A stretch of DNA of 64,000 bases from assembly GCF_028583545.1 (NCBI RefSeq), contig NZ_CP087106.1, positions 5,625,001-5,689,000 of the forward strand. The letters are read 5' to 3'. Under the pieces are notes generated by a model, which was not told the DNA's origin, made no database searches, and was given only the letters and a program-made list of their open reading frames with translations. Source of the stretch: Methylobacterium sp. NMS14P (GTDB lineage: Bacteria > Pseudomonadota > Alphaproteobacteria > Rhizobiales > Beijerinckiaceae). The translations under genes were made by a program, and so were the position numbers. Numbering within the stretch: position 1 is the first letter of the stretch; each line of letters starts with the position of its first letter. Below are positions 24,799 through 35,566 of this stretch, piece after piece.

Positions 24799-24975
24799 TC
24801 AGTCCTGGCGGCGCGGCTGCCGTGCACGCACGCGGACCGGTACGGGCGCCGGTGCCGGCATGAGACCGAGCGTGGCCGCGCGCAGGGCGTCGCCGGCCCT
24901 GTCGACGATCTCGGTCACGCGCTCCGCCATCGCGGCGGCCTTCGATCGAACGGCACTCTTGGCAGATTGCAGCAT
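24799..24975 (-). CDS. Small hypothetical protein, 58 residues
   Basis: An ATG at 24975 opens a 58-codon frame ending at TGA 24801-24799. The first 38 residues form a likely amphipathic helix ([34 protein letters not shown]) and the tail is Pro/Arg-rich ([18 protein letters not shown]). The helix has a sensible Lys/Glu/Arg pattern, which makes it more likely real than the surrounding frames, but there is no recognised family. It is the only candidate gene in the 24566-25180 gap. Confidence 0.4.
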
Positions 24976-25099
24976 CGCAAATCCCGGATCGAGCCTGGAG
25001 ACCTATCTTCGAACGCTAGCGCCCCTGTCTCGTTCCGTCACCCCGTGTCGCGGACGGCGCGCGCAGCCGCAGGGACTCACAGGACTTCGCGATAGGGGC

Positions 25100-25124
25100 G
25101 GAACCGGAGCTAAACCTTGGCGTT
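25100..25124 (+). promoter_or_regulatory. EcfG-type general stress promoter upstream of DUF1328 gene
   Basis: GGAAC at 25100-25104, 16-base spacer, CGTT at 25121-25124. This is an exact match to the alphaproteobacterial EcfG consensus GGAAC-N16/17-CGTT. The -10 end is 57 bases from the ATG at 25181. Confidence 0.8.
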
Positions 25125-25180: not shown

Positions 25181-25357
25181 ATGCTCGGTTGGGCCGTAAC
25201 TTTTCTCGTCGTCGCCCTCGTGGCCGCTCTGCTTGGCTTCGGCGGCATCGCCGGCACCGCAATGGAAGCGGCCAAGCTGGTGTTCTTCGTGGCGATCGTG
25301 CTGTTCGCGATCTCGGCCGTCGTCGGCCTGATGCGGGGCCGTTCGCCGACTCTCTGA
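25181..25357 (+). CDS. DUF1328 (YtjA-like) small membrane protein
   Basis: A 58-residue protein with two membrane helices: [20 protein letters not shown], a short [12 protein letters not shown] turn, then [19 protein letters not shown]. This is the DUF1328 pattern. AAGGA at 25168-25172 is its ribosome site. An exact EcfG promoter upstream places it in the general stress regulon, consistent with reports that this small family is stress-induced in alphaproteobacteria. Its biochemical role is unknown. Confidence 0.9.
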
Positions 25358-25562: not shown

Positions 25563-25838
25563 TCAGGCCTTGCGGTCGGCGCCGTCGAGTCGCGCGATCA
25601 GCTCGGCGAAGCGGTCAGGGACCGGTTGCTGTGTGACCGTGTCGTACATCGCGCGCAATTGCGCGGCGATGCGATTGCGAGTCTGATCACTCAGGCCGTT
25701 CCTGCTCCTGGCGCGGTCGGGCTGGTCGGAAACAGCTGCGTCGACGGGGCTGTTCTCAGGCGCCGATGAGCGATCCGAAGCAATCTCGGCGTGCGGATCG
25801 CGCGCGCGAAGACCTGCCTCCTTCCCCTGGTCCACCAT
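25563..25838 (-). CDS. nepR: NepR-family anti-sigma factor of the general stress response
   Basis: A 91-residue protein. The C-terminal half carries the NepR signature LSDQTRNRIAAQLRAMYDTVTQQPVPDRFAELIARLD (two amphipathic helices joined at the conserved P-x-P/RF region). The first 50 residues are charged and probably disordered. NepR binds sigma EcfG and keeps it inactive until phosphorylated PhyR captures NepR. ATG 25838 is preferred to ATG 25901, because the mapped EcfG promoter predicts transcription starting only a few bases before 25901. It is divergent from phyR. No ecfG gene is in this window. Confidence 0.9.
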   Translation of the reverse strand: MVDQGKEAGLRARDPHAEIASDRSSAPENSPVDAAVSDQPDRARSRNGLSDQTRNRIAAQLRAMYDTVTQQPVPDRFAELIARLDGADRKA

Positions 25839-25913
25839 CAACACGCCCCTTGTTGCCGAAGTCGGCACGGCCGCATTGTGCTGCGGCTCGACATACGCCA
25901 TGGCTGCGGCGGC

Positions 25914-25939
25914 AACGCCTGCGCGCCGGCATCGGTTCC
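25914..25939 (-). promoter_or_regulatory. EcfG-type promoter of nepR
   Basis: On the minus strand, GGAAC (25939-25935), 17-base spacer, CGTT (25917-25914). It points to nepR, leaving a leader of about 70 bases to ATG 25838. It would give negative feedback on the stress response. Confidence 0.8.
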
Positions 25940-25949
25940 GCCGGGGGGT

Positions 25950-25974
25950 GGAACGGAGTGCGGGCCTCCGCGTT
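25950..25974 (+). promoter_or_regulatory. EcfG-type promoter of phyR
   Basis: GGAAC at 25950-25954, 16-base spacer, CGTT at 25971-25974. It points to phyR (ATG 26076), and its -35 box starts only 11 bases from that of the divergent nepR promoter. Confidence 0.8.
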
Positions 25975-26075: not shown

Positions 26076-26879
26076 ATGTCGACATCGCAACTCGTGGTAC
26101 AGCACCTGCCGTACCTGCGCCGCTACGCGCGCGCGCTCACGGGTAGCCAAGTGGCGGGTGACGCGTACGTCGCCGCCACCCTGGAGACCCTCGTCAACGA
26201 GCCGGACACGCTCGGTCGCAGCACCAACATCAAGGCCGACCTCTTCCGCGTGTTCACGCGGATCTGGAACTCGCTCTCGGTCAACGGCCGCAGTGAGCAG
26301 GTCCAGCACGACCTGCCGGCGGAGGTCCGCCTCGGCCAGATCACGCCGCTGCCCCGCCAAGCCTTCCTGCTCTCCTGCCTCGAGGGCTTCTCCGAGGAGG
26401 ATGCGGCGATCATCCTGGGCGTCGACGTGTCCGAGGTTCGCGATCTCGTGGACGAGGCTGGCCGCGAACTCGCCGCCGACATGGCGACCGAGATCCTCAT
26501 CATCGAGGACGAGCCCCTGATCGCGATGGATCTGGAGGCGCTGGTCGAGGGTCTCGGGCACAACGTCATCGGCGTCGCCCGCACCCGCACCGAGGCGATC
26601 AAGATCGCCGGCGAGGGCAAGCGCCCCGGCCTGATCCTGGCCGACATTCAGCTCGCCGACGGCTCCTCCGGCCTCGACGCGGTGAACGACCTCCTGAAGT
26701 CCTTCGAGGTGCCGGTGATCTTCATCACCGCCTATCCGGAGCGCTTCCTGACCGGTGAGCGGCCGGAGCCGGCCTTCCTCATCGCCAAGCCGTTCCAGCC
26801 CGCCAACGTCTCGGCGGTGATCAGCCAGGCGCTGTTCTTCCAGCAGACCGCCCGTCGGCGCGAAGCCAAGACGGCCTGA
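26076..26879 (+). CDS. phyR: General stress response regulator PhyR
   Basis: The 267-residue protein joins an N-terminal sigma-factor-like domain (about 1-135: QHLPYLRRYARALTGSQVAGDAYV; LPRQAFLLSCLEGFSEEDAAIILGVDVSEVRDLV) to a C-terminal receiver (ILIIEDEPLIAMDLEALV; phosphoacceptor Asp190 in ILADIQLADG; FITAYPERFLTG; IAKPFQP). The length and Asp190 equal those described for the Methylorubrum extorquens PhyR. When phosphorylated, its sigma-like domain binds NepR and frees EcfG. An EcfG promoter lies upstream and a strong bidirectional terminator downstream. Confidence 0.98.
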   Translation: MSTSQLVVQHLPYLRRYARALTGSQVAGDAYVAATLETLVNEPDTLGRSTNIKADLFRVFTRIWNSLSVNGRSEQVQHDLPAEVRLGQITPLPRQAFLLSCLEGFSEEDAAIILGVDVSEVRDLVDEAGRELAADMATEILIIEDEPLIAMDLEALVEGLGHNVIGVARTRTEAIKIAGEGKRPGLILADIQLADGSSGLDAVNDLLKSFEVPVIFITAYPERFLTGERPEPAFLIAKPFQPANVSAVISQALFFQQTARRREAKTA

Positions 26880-26937: not shown

Positions 26938-26979
26938 GGCAACAAAAAACCCCGGCTTGCGCCGGGGTTTTTTGTTGCC
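26938..26979. terminator. Long perfect bidirectional terminator after phyR
   Basis: Perfect 19-base arms (GGCAACAAAAAACCCCGGC and its complement) around a TTGC loop. A6 on the left and T6 on the right flank the GC core, so it can stop transcription from both sides: phyR from the left, and anything passing the small RNA unit from the right. Confidence 0.92.
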
Positions 26980-27007: not shown

Positions 27008-27099
27008 AAAAAAACGGGCCGGAGAAGGCTCCAGCCCGTCGCGAAGGTTCCGGCCGATGCACAAGGGGAATGCGGGGAGGACCAGGTGGCCGGGTGCAC
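27008..27099 (-). ncRNA. Candidate EcfG-dependent GsrN-like small RNA, about 92 nt
   Basis: An exact EcfG promoter (27104-27128, minus strand) sits 4 bases before the predicted 5' end near 27099-27097. The transcript can fold into a 5' hairpin, UGCAC (27098-27094) pairing with GUGCA (27062-27058), exposing a C-rich loop with CCUCCCC and UUCCCC that resembles anti-Shine-Dalgarno sequence. The 3' end is an intrinsic terminator: 11-base stem 27039-27029/27024-27014 with one G-U pair, AAGG-complement loop, then seven U. No open frame of credible composition spans it. It lies beside phyR/nepR, as described for GsrN-type stress RNAs. The exact ends are predictions. Confidence 0.72.
27014..27039 (-). 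terminator. Intrinsic terminator of the candidate small RNA
   Basis: Read on the minus strand, ACGGGCUGGAG pairs with CUCCGGCCCGU around CCUU, followed by seven U (27014-27008). It only makes sense for leftward transcription. Confidence 0.85.
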
Positions 27100-27103
27100 A
27101 GAG

Positions 27104-27128
27104 AACGAGTGCCGGCGCAGGAGGTTCC
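27104..27128 (-). promoter_or_regulatory. EcfG-type promoter of the candidate small RNA
   Basis: Minus strand GGAAC (27128-27124), 16-base spacer, CGTT (27107-27104). It directs transcription toward the terminator at 27039-27008, giving a unit too short for a normal gene. Confidence 0.8.
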
Positions 27129-27259: not shown

Positions 27260-27284
27260 GGAACCTGCGATTGCAGGGCGCGTT
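27260..27284 (+). promoter_or_regulatory. EcfG-type promoter of the exported protein gene at 27326
   Basis: GGAAC at 27260-27264, 16-base spacer, CGTT at 27281-27284. The next ATG with a signal peptide is 42 bases downstream. Confidence 0.78.
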
Positions 27285-27325: not shown

Positions 27326-27688
27326 ATGCTGCGGTCTGGTTTCATTCTGGGCGTGAGTGCTCCTGCCGCTCTTCTCACCGTTCTGATCCAGCCGGTCGTT
27401 CGCGACACGGCGGATCGCTGGACGATGCCGGTCCCCACGGCTCAGGCGATCCAGGCGCCGCTGCCGGGAATGCGTCCCGCCTCCCTGTCGATCAGCCCGA
27501 CGCGGGTGGCGGGCGTGCAGCGGCTCGAGAGCCGGAACGCGCCCGTCGCGGGCGAGGCCCAGGATCTCGAGATCAAGCCAATCCTGCGGCAGCCGCCGCG
27601 ACGGATGCGCGAGGGGTGCGAGGCGTCCCTGAGTTCACTGGTCGGCCCCGAGGCGCGCCGCATGACCCCCGGCCGCTGCATCTCCTGA
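27326..27688 (+). CDS. Hypothetical exported protein under EcfG control
   Basis: A 120-residue protein with a hydrophobic N-terminal segment (residues 4-24, SGFILGVSAPAALLTVLIQPV) likely to be a signal anchor. The rest is basic and proline-rich, ending in MREGCEASLSSLVGPEARRMTPGRCIS with two cysteines that could pair in the periplasm. No known domain is recognised. An exact EcfG promoter upstream and a strong hairpin downstream make it an isolated stress-regulated gene. Confidence 0.7.
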   Translation: MLRSGFILGVSAPAALLTVLIQPVVRDTADRWTMPVPTAQAIQAPLPGMRPASLSISPTRVAGVQRLESRNAPVAGEAQDLEIKPILRQPPRRMREGCEASLSSLVGPEARRMTPGRCIS

Positions 27689-27705: not shown

Positions 27706-27754
27706 CACACAGCCAAAAGGCCCCGCCGTCTCGGCGGGGCCTTTTGGCTGTGTG
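27706..27754. terminator. 23-bp perfect hairpin, probable bidirectional terminator
   Basis: Arms 27706-27728 and 27732-27754 are perfectly complementary over 23 bases (CACACAGCCAAAAGGCCCCG...), with only TCT between. The AAAA/TTTT tracts inside the arms allow terminator action on both strands: for the exported protein gene (plus) and for the KGG gene (minus, whose stop is about 100 bases away). Confidence 0.75.
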
Positions 27755-27855: not shown

Positions 27856-28044
27856 TCACTCGGCCCGGCCGGTCCCCGTTGACTGCCCGCCCTTGCGGCC
27901 GGCGGACGAGGCGAGCTCGCGATCCTGCGAGAAGGAACGCTTCTCGGCCGGCACGCTGCGGCCGCCCTTGCTGGCGATCTCGCGCTGCCGCTCCAGATCC
28001 ATCGAGGCAAAGCCCCGCTTCGAGGTCGAATTTCCGGATGCCAT
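27856..28044 (-). CDS. KGG-motif general stress protein
   Basis: A 62-residue hydrophilic protein: MASGNSTSKRGFASMDLERQREIASKGGRSVPAEKRSFSQDRELASSAGRKGG... It carries two copies of the stress-protein repeat 'GFASMD-x-ERQREIASKGG' and 'SFSQDRELASSAGRKGG'. The family includes Con-10-like and GsiB-like hydrophilins that protect against desiccation or osmotic stress. A GAGGA ribosome site lies upstream of ATG 28044. An EcfG-like promoter precedes it. Confidence 0.9.
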   Translation of the reverse strand: MASGNSTSKRGFASMDLERQREIASKGGRSVPAEKRSFSQDRELASSAGRKGGQSTGTGRAE

Positions 28045-28078
28045 CAGTTCCTCCTCAGGCTTCGCTTCACCCCGCAAC

Positions 28079-28103
28079 AACCTTCAGCAATAACCAAGGT
28101 TCC
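28079..28103 (-). promoter_or_regulatory. EcfG-like promoter variant of the KGG gene
   Basis: Minus strand GGAAC (28103-28099), 16-base spacer, GGTT (28082-28079) instead of CGTT. Position (35 bases from ATG 28044) and gene family fit a stress promoter, but the first -10 base deviates. Confidence 0.55.
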
Positions 28104-31467: not shown

Positions 31468-31493
31468 AACGAGCGGCTCCGGGCCGTCGTTCC
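31468..31493 (-). promoter_or_regulatory. EcfG-type promoter adjoining ATG 31460
   Basis: Minus strand GGAAC (31493-31489), 17-base spacer, CGTT (31471-31468). It is exact but unusually close to the start codon, so chance occurrence is less easily excluded than in the phyR region. Confidence 0.6.
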
Positions 31494-34426: not shown

Positions 34427-35566
34427 ATGAGCCGCCCCGTCGTCGTCACCGGCCTCGGCCTCGTCTCCTGCGCGGGCGAGGGCGTCGACGCTCACCTGGC
34501 CGCCCTCGCCGGGGAGGCGGCCCCGCGCACCGACAGCGAGACCTTCGCGCCCTATCCGGTCCATCCGGCCCCAGCGATCGTGTGGGACGGTCAGATTCCC
34601 AAGCGCAGCGACCAGCGGCAGATGGAGGCGTGGCAGCGGCTCGGCGTCTACGCCGCCGGCCTCGCCCTCGACGAAGCGGGCGTGAAGGACGACGCCGCCT
34701 TCAAGCAGGCGCTTCACCTCGTCGTGGCCGCGGGCGGCGGTGAGCGCGACTACGCGGCGGACGGAGCGATCCTGACCGGCCTGCGCGACGCCGCGGACCC
34801 GGGCGCCTACCTGAACGAGCGGCTCCAGAACGATCTCCGCCCGACGCTGTTCCTCGCCCAGCTCTCGAACCTGCTCGCCGGCAACATCGCCATCGTGCAC
34901 GGGGTGACGGGCGCCTCGCGCACGTTCATGGGCGAGGAATCCGCCGGGGTCGACGCCCTGCGGATCGCCCAGGCGCGGGTGGCGTCGGGCCAGATCGACG
35001 CGATCCTGGTCGGCGGCTCCTACAGCGCCGAGCGGCCGGACGTGCTGGTGATCCACGAGATGGGCGGCTACCTCGCCCGCGACGCCTACCGTCCGGTCTT
35101 CGCACGGGGCGAGGCGGGTGGCGAGGCAGGCGGGTTCATCCTCGGAAGCTGCGCGGCCTTCCTGATGCTCGAATCCGCCGCGCACGCGGCCGCCCGCGGC
35201 GCCCGCGCCCTGGCGCGGCTGGAGCCGGTGGCGAGCGACCGGACCCGGCGCGCGCCGGGCAGCGTCGCCGGCAGCCTCGAGACCCTCTGGCGAAAGGCCG
35301 GCCTCTCGGACCCCGACCACGTCCTGTCCGGCGCCACCGGCGTCGCCCCGATCACCGCGGAGGAGCGCGCGACGCTGGCACAGCTCGCACCGGGCGCGCC
35401 CCTGCGGGCCCTCGGGGACGTGATCGGGCACGGGCTCGAGGTGGCGGCGCCGTTCGGGGCGGCCCTCGCCGCCGCCCTCGTCGCCGAGGGCCGCGCCCGC
35501 GAGGTCGCCGTGACCGCTGTCGGCCACCGGCGCGGCGAGGGTGTCCTGCGCCTTGTCGCGGCCTGA
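34427..35566 (+). CDS. Beta-ketoacyl synthase-like protein lacking the active-site cysteine (FabF2XL-type)
   Basis: The 379-residue protein has a thiolase fold start (RPVVVTGLGLVSCAGEGVDAHLAAL) and the usual KS blocks, yet the nucleophilic Cys position is replaced: aligning GxxDAILVGGS with FabF places Glu171 (in FMGEESAGVDAL) where Cys should be. The first catalytic His is also absent (SGATGVAPI instead of HGTxT), while the second is kept (DVIGHGLEVAAPFGAA). It resembles the chain-length-factor partners of KS dimers and the rhizobial FabF2XL. It starts 7 bases after the dehydratase gene. Confidence 0.85.
   Translation: MSRPVVVTGLGLVSCAGEGVDAHLAALAGEAAPRTDSETFAPYPVHPAPAIVWDGQIPKRSDQRQMEAWQRLGVYAAGLALDEAGVKDDAAFKQALHLVVAAGGGERDYAADGAILTGLRDAADPGAYLNERLQNDLRPTLFLAQLSNLLAGNIAIVHGVTGASRTFMGEESAGVDALRIAQARVASGQIDAILVGGSYSAERPDVLVIHEMGGYLARDAYRPVFARGEAGGEAGGFILGSCAAFLMLESAAHAAARGARALARLEPVASDRTRRAPGSVAGSLETLWRKAGLSDPDHVLSGATGVAPITAEERATLAQLAPGAPLRALGDVIGHGLEVAAPFGAALAAALVAEGRAREVAVTAVGHRRGEGVLRLVAA

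Follow-up and report, generated by a model that had tools for sequence, protein, structure and literature searches.

A conserved EcfG-type small RNA gene, putatively of the general stress response, convergent with phyR in Methylobacterium and related genera

In Methylobacterium sp. NMS14P, the interval beyond phyR carries a promoter of the EcfG type on the minus strand, followed after 89 bases by seven T that are preceded by a strong terminator hairpin. What is encoded in so short a unit, and is it tied to the stress genes beside it? We addressed this question in a stretch of 64,000 nucleotides of contig NZ_CP087106.1 (hereafter the window), for which a first-pass annotation, made from the letters alone, had proposed a GsrN-like stress small RNA (sRNA). 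Our analysis indicates that the unit is probably a stand-alone, trans-acting non-coding RNA gene of the general stress response, and the most likely reading of its sequence is a trans-acting stress sRNA with seeds of the anti-Shine-Dalgarno type.

Pattern matching returned an exact EcfG-type promoter, GGAAC-N16-CGTT, reading from 27128 to 27104 on the minus strand, exactly as first annotated. The window contains eight strict EcfG matches versus one for the control, and six of the eight fall between 25012 and 27284, in about 2.3 kb around nepR and phyR. Genome-wide, 89 strict matches were found (both spacings), versus 33 for the pattern read backward. Among the window's eight strict matches, the promoter at 27128 is the only one with a terminator within 220 bases. 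The positions of the features are given in the table.

Coordinates of the predicted sRNA gene and neighbouring features in the window
Feature	Position	Strand	Basis or remark
EcfG-type promoter GGAAC-N16-CGTT	27104-27128	-	exact match; boxes conserved 0.94-1.00, spacer 0.41 (110 genus rows)
Predicted sRNA, about 90 nt	27008-27097	-	conservation block and fold; promoter spacing gives the inferred start, the T run the inferred end
CCGGCC, 5′ arm of conserved stem	27088-27093	-	99.5% of cells paired (35 sequences); three rows have U-A for C-G
GGCCGG, 3′ arm of conserved stem	27050-27055	-	pair counts
32-nt loop with both C tracts	27056-27087	-	loop length over 113 loci
C tract 1, UCCUCCCC, anti-Shine-Dalgarno-like	27074-27081	-	nearly invariant
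C tract 2, UUCCCCUU	27063-27070	-	nearly invariant
Intrinsic terminator, hairpin and seven T	27008-27040	-	fold; strong covariation in alignment A2
phyR, convergent with sRNA gene	26076-26879	+	Pfam PhyR_sigma2, PhyR_sigma-like, receiver
nepR, divergent from phyR	25563-25901	-	Pfam NepR, 53.5 bits
Probable phyR terminator: inverted repeat with runs of A and T, lying between phyR and the sRNA end	26938-26979	.	sequence
Other strict EcfG-type sites	25012-25036, 25100-25124, 25914-25939, 25950-25974, 27260-27284, 31468-31493, 34829-34853	-, +, -, +, +, -, -	

Several other genes of this region lie next to sites of the same type. The sites at 25914 and 25950 face nepR and phyR, a DUF1328 gene (25181-25357) lies downstream of the site at 25100, and a 58-aa ORF (24799-24975) downstream of that at 25012. 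Downstream of the site at 27260 is a 120-aa ORF (27326-27688) with no Pfam match, directly followed by a long near-perfect inverted repeat (27706-27754), probably a terminator. A small protein with KGG repeats (27856-28080, minus strand; Pfam stress-induced repeat, 64 bits) is likely another stress gene nearby.

A DNA search gave matches in all 111 genomes of the same genus. The G074 match spans just 45 bases, lacks promoter, core and phyR, and is spurious; the other 110 of the 111 genomes have both stem arms and a terminator hairpin with a T-rich tail. The promoter is strict in 103 of the 111 and reads GGAAC/GGTT in five; of the remaining three, two (L075 and L089) have TGTT at −10 and the third is the spurious match. 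Over 110 rows, the window included, mean identity to the window sequence was 0.99–1.00 in the −35 box, 0.94–1.00 in the −10 box and 0.975 in the 51-nt core (lowest column 0.59), versus 0.36 in the upstream flank, 0.41 in the promoter spacer and 0.29 downstream. Conservation rests on the promoter boxes and the RNA, not on the spacer or the flanks. The first-pass annotation had named loss of the promoter, the C-rich loop and the terminator in relatives as evidence against its proposal; our comparison showed all three to be conserved.

The wider surveys used samples of 199 family, 397 order and 289 class genomes. In the family sample, 25 of 199 genomes matched, 10 within the genus and 15 outside it. 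One of the latter (L057, genus g35) was a spurious 28-base match without promoter; the remaining 14 belong to genera g20, g32 and g36, and have the stem arms and the terminator in 14 of 14 cases and a strict promoter in 13. A search with the DNA pattern TGGTCCTCCCCGCATTCCCCTT found 105 matching stretches in named genomes. By a hand count of titles, these comprised 51 of Methylobacterium, 40 of Microvirga, nine of Methylorubrum, one of Salinarimonas, strain YIM 77505, and three metagenome-assembled genomes titled Rhizobiaceae, Beijerinckiaceae and Methylobacteriaceae. Their promoters were strict in 101, relaxed in two and neither in two, and phyR was convergent downstream in 99, the other six having no phyR inside the stretch.

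In the order and class samples, scoring with model R1 was limited to the best 10 (order) or 14 (class) candidates per genome and was insensitive for that reason. It recovered nine same-genus genomes and five weak matches among the 397 order genomes, and two same-genus genomes and two weak matches among the 289 class genomes, so that this insensitive search gave no credible match outside the clade in either sample. The weak matches (L141-L145, L349 and L350; 31–35 bits) have no EcfG promoter near them and were taken as chance; L141-L145 also have no phyR in the locus.

The gene order is equally constant. Of 128 loci in the synteny set, 120 have phyR in the stretch (106 of the genus and 14 of the family), and the sRNA gene is convergent with phyR in every one, in agreement with the proposal of a stand-alone EcfG-type sRNA gene beside phyR and nepR. 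The distance from the end of the sRNA match to the extrapolated end of phyR is 50–616 bases, mostly about 0.1 kb. The eight loci without phyR in the stretch are the spurious L057, L059 and L130, the second copy L058, and four real genes in short stretches.

The predicted 92-nt RNA is more stable than 200 out of 200 dinucleotide shuffles (z −3.2), the terminator being the main contributor; the 58-nt 5′ part alone is unremarkable (z −0.9; 36 of 200 dinucleotide shuffles equally stable). The terminator, ACGGGCUGGAG-CCUU-CUCCGGCCCGU at 27039-27014, has 12 pairs in the fold including one G-U, with seven T at 27014-27008. The annotated intrinsic terminator with seven U about 90 bases from the promoter was thus recovered, and its hairpin is kept in 110 of the 111 genus genomes.

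The pairing was examined in alignment A2, which holds 35 of 109 distinct transcripts, picked for divergence and length and without L044 (cut too short). Eight loci with an interrupted T run had been left out of the transcript set and were later scored under a laxer tail rule. Our analysis showed a conserved 5′ stem, CCGGCC/GGCCGG, with 99.5% of cells paired. Four of its six pairs are invariant and C-G is replaced by U-A in three g20 rows, so the comparative support for this predicted stem is one covarying pair. The terminator stem shows strong covariation. For stem and terminator together, eight of 17 pairs carry double changes versus 4.6 in shuffles, and 40 cells are doubly changed versus 12.4, values that none of 500 shuffles reached in either case; the number of further pair types is unexceptional (16 versus 13.7, reached by 39 of 500 shuffles). 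The UGCAC/GUGCA hairpin that had been proposed to expose the loop is not conserved: 63.3% of its cells are paired versus 62.6% in shuffles, with its U-A pair found in five of 32 rows and its G-C position paired in 16 of 35. Nor do we claim an inner hairpin, GCAU/GUGC, that appears in the predicted fold; two of its pairs are each broken in two of 35 rows.

The loop closed by CCGGCC/GGCCGG is 32 nt long in 82 loci, 33 in 25, 34 in five and 36 in one (n = 113), and presents both C tracts. About 28 nt of it are near-invariant across genera. The anti-Shine-Dalgarno-like C-rich stretches of the original description were therefore upheld as two near-invariant tracts, held by a different stem from the one described. 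The segment UCCCCU in the region of tract 2 has a mean unpaired probability of 0.985 over 99 transcripts; in the predicted fold of the window sequence, the first four bases of tract 1 are open and the last four partly paired. The C run of the core is CCCC in 90 loci, CCCCC in 17, CCCCCC in seven and CAACC in two (n = 116). Any reading frame would be shifted by these changes between species, and no frame is kept, which bears out the earlier statement that no coding frame explains the unit.

Diverged forms were found further out. Among the rows listed, PhyR identity is 74–100% in genera g1, g20, g32, g36, g41 and g34, and at most 64% elsewhere. The RNA or a diverged form of it is present in g1, g20, g32, g36 and g41; no RNA and no unit of EcfG promoter and terminator was found in the four g34 loci examined. 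Two of five g41 loci (L263 and L264) carry a diverged homologue, convergent with phyR and with promoter and terminator kept. It shares the stem and the 3′ flank (ACCGGCC ... GGCCGGCACCTT) of the main sRNA; its loop is shorter and bears a single C tract. From this homologue, the loop seems to be replaceable on a kept stem. Genome G182 has a second EcfG-driven unit (L058) with a strict promoter, the stretch CCCCGCATTCCCCTTGTGCA, and a stem of its own (CGGCCCGU/ACGGGCCG) and terminator of its own, both differing from those of the main sRNA; no phyR was found within this 3-kb locus.

The g41 and g34 loci belong to a set of 40 further phyR loci that we examined for terminator-bounded units behind EcfG promoters. 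Among the other genera, such units lie 1.2–1.4 kb downstream of phyR, convergent with it, in L276 and L302 (g10) and in L291 (g13), and upstream of phyR in L297 (g38). All four contain C-rich stretches and are not alignable by eye with the Methylobacterium sRNA. These loci hold 90 strict EcfG matches versus 2–4 per control (five controls), and a terminator follows five of the 90 versus one of 14 control matches. The phyR loci are rich in EcfG sites, and some of the terminator-bounded units in other genera may be chance, because one of the 14 control matches also has a terminator.

How does this RNA compare with those already described? GsrN of Caulobacter crescentus has an EcfG/SigT promoter, a length of about 100 nt, an intrinsic terminator and a C-rich 5′ loop, which pairs with the katG leader and activates katG; it is cleaved to a stable 5′ isoform, and Hfq affects the full-length RNA (PMC5869019). 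Its homologues in Caulobacteraceae usually lie near the phyR-nepR-ecfG genes, C. crescentus excepted, and the published BLASTn matches are confined to that family (PMC5869019). GsrN-like RNAs have been predicted in Rhizobium etli, Sinorhizobium meliloti, Brucella abortus, Agrobacterium, Rhodopseudomonas palustris and Bradyrhizobium diazoefficiens from their locus, their EcfG site and, for some, transcription, and those of Rhizobiaceae have an exposed C-rich 5′ loop (PMC5869019); Methylobacterium is absent from the main text of that report on GsrN-like RNAs. The Methylobacterium sRNA resembles GsrN in its stress-sigma promoter, C-rich 5′ loop, own terminator and site near phyR and nepR, and differs from it in a loop of two C tracts closed by CCGGCC/GGCCGG. 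It resembles the predicted RNAs in locus and EcfG site and, as regards those of Rhizobiaceae, in the C-rich 5′ loop. The label GsrN-like thus stands with respect to promoter type, locus and the logic of the C-rich loop; it is the hairpin once claimed that is not supported.

Among other rhizobial sRNAs, AbcR/alpha-r15 and NfeR1/alpha-r14 have unpaired anti-Shine-Dalgarno motifs whose targets, presumed or demonstrated, are translation start regions (PMC7143759). The Methylobacterium sRNA appears to share such an unpaired motif with them; unlike it, they are not described in that account as EcfG-driven units beside phyR. The Rfam ar15 model scores 10.7 bits at the sRNA region, versus a cut-off of 40. 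Rfam 15 gave no match at the gathering score in the window, the best weak match in the region being Pyrobac-1 with 19.9 bits. The Methylobacterium-1 RNA motif (RF01712) is reported from Methylobacterium (PMC2864571); it has no gathering-score match in the window and is not among the six weak matches of the region. By its own account, a study of strain AM1 left sRNA transcripts unexamined (PMC6520949). We found no published description of this sRNA in the open-licence literature, which takes in few subscription papers; together with the lack of an Rfam match, this agrees with the suggestion that it is undescribed in Methylobacterium. It appears, then, to be a new EcfG-linked stress sRNA of the GsrN-like kind, its resemblance to GsrN being one of promoter type, locus and loop.

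Which mRNAs might it pair with? In the window's species, the katG leader has GGGGGACCA over the start region, and two of 55 background genes are equally good. By longest contiguous pairing, five out of nine species have katG leaders that rank within the top 5.5% of a crude 55-gene background, and the other four are ordinary; L310 was excluded for lack of an identified start. This background, built from crude gene calls, did not outscore random 40-mers and is therefore weak. Among 16 genomes of the genus, five lack katG itself and one has a partial copy with stop codons. Because the species are related and the background is crude, the fit of katG as a target is suggestive only.

The genome has eight NepR-type matches, of which the leaders of seven were tested. 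By duplex energy, no ecfG or nepR leader rose above a 54-gene background, and the ecfG leaders of the window's genome were unremarkable by both duplex energy and contiguous pairing. By longest contiguous pairing against 55 genes, L257 (NepR-like/receiver) is the only ecfG or nepR leader in the top 4%; it stands out by contiguous match, not by duplex energy. Its gene (1075-1668 of L257, minus strand, in the window's own genome) joins a weak NepR-like stretch, below the Pfam cut-off, to a receiver domain. The perfect complement AAGGGGAATG occurs at three genome sites, namely the sRNA locus itself, the inside of an ORF on the other strand and a position upstream of a small ORF, which is no more than chance predicts. 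When up to three mismatches were allowed, an 18-mer complement gave 62 sites besides the sRNA in eight genomes, versus 40 for the control, and none stood out. One complement recurring in four of the eight genomes was rejected: the copy scanned (L380 1461-1655) proved to be a cobalamin riboswitch (104.6 bits), which mimics a complement of the sRNA loop.

The partner switch of PhyR, NepR and EcfG is known, and with the promoter it suggests how the RNA would act. Under stress, PhyR would bind NepR, and the EcfG-type sigma factors thus freed would transcribe the sRNA gene from its EcfG promoter. The product, an RNA of about 90 nt ending at its own terminator, would keep its large loop with the two C tracts open by means of the short G-C stem, as conservation and fold suggest. 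Probably together with Hfq, for which the window's genome has one gene, the C tracts would then base-pair with target mRNAs at their G-rich Shine-Dalgarno regions. Such pairing would alter translation or stability of the targets, with repression where the ribosome-binding site is covered, and by analogy with the action of GsrN on katG some targets might be activated. That the loop is near-invariant agrees with one seed serving several targets. We regard it as a long shot that this sRNA supplies the post-transcriptional control missing so far from the Methylobacterium stress cascade and closes a feed-forward loop. No tie between the sRNA and ecfG3 was found, the ecfG leaders of the window's genome being unremarkable as noted, and leader pairing is made less likely by a published test in which the ORF had been cloned in a plasmid.

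Other explanations of the locus need to be weighed against a trans-acting stress sRNA. The one that deserves most attention, although we think it unlikely, is that the gene is a true GsrN orthologue diverged beyond sequence recognition, descended from an ancestral alphaproteobacterial sRNA of the stress locus whose loop was rewritten in each lineage. The promoter type, the locus and the C-rich 5′ loop logic are those of GsrN (PMC5869019), the g41 homologue shows a changed loop on a kept stem, and L276, L291 and L302 place EcfG-driven, terminator-bounded units downstream of phyR in other genera of the family. Those units, however, cannot be aligned with the sRNA and some may be chance, the BLASTn matches of GsrN stop at Caulobacteraceae (PMC5869019), and the insensitive R1 search of 397 order and 289 class genomes yielded no credible match outside the genus. 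Less probable still is that the partner of the C-rich loop is a protein, or the ribosome, and not many mRNAs, the RNA acting for instance as a decoy. Some 28 near-invariant loop nucleotides are more than a short pairing seed needs, and the target search found no clear complement, which would suit such a role; yet the length of the C run varies, and we know of no candidate protein for a C-rich loop. The C tracts moreover resemble the anti-Shine-Dalgarno seeds with which other alphaproteobacterial sRNAs pair with mRNA (PMC7143759).

The convergent arrangement, seen in all 120 loci and with the gene mostly some 0.1 kb away from the end of phyR, could also reflect an action in cis on phyR, through read-through antisense RNA or convergent transcription. 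We consider this very unlikely, since the sRNA has its own strong terminator, a second inverted repeat stands before phyR, the distance to phyR reaches 616 bases, and it is the RNA core, not the spacer toward phyR, that is under selection. That the unit encodes a small peptide is barely credible: stop-free frames do cross the region in the window's own species, but this reading is contradicted by frame-shifting changes in core length (a C run of 4, 5 or 6, or CAACC).

A trans-acting stress sRNA at this locus would provide a concrete RNA candidate for the general stress response of Methylobacterium, which the published accounts we draw on have so far described in terms of its sigma and anti-sigma proteins. 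The candidate is common to Methylobacterium, Methylorubrum and Microvirga. With it, the open question of post-transcriptional control in the stress cascade becomes directly testable. The finding further strengthens the view that EcfG-linked, C-rich sRNAs with changing loops turn up repeatedly at the stress loci of alphaproteobacteria.
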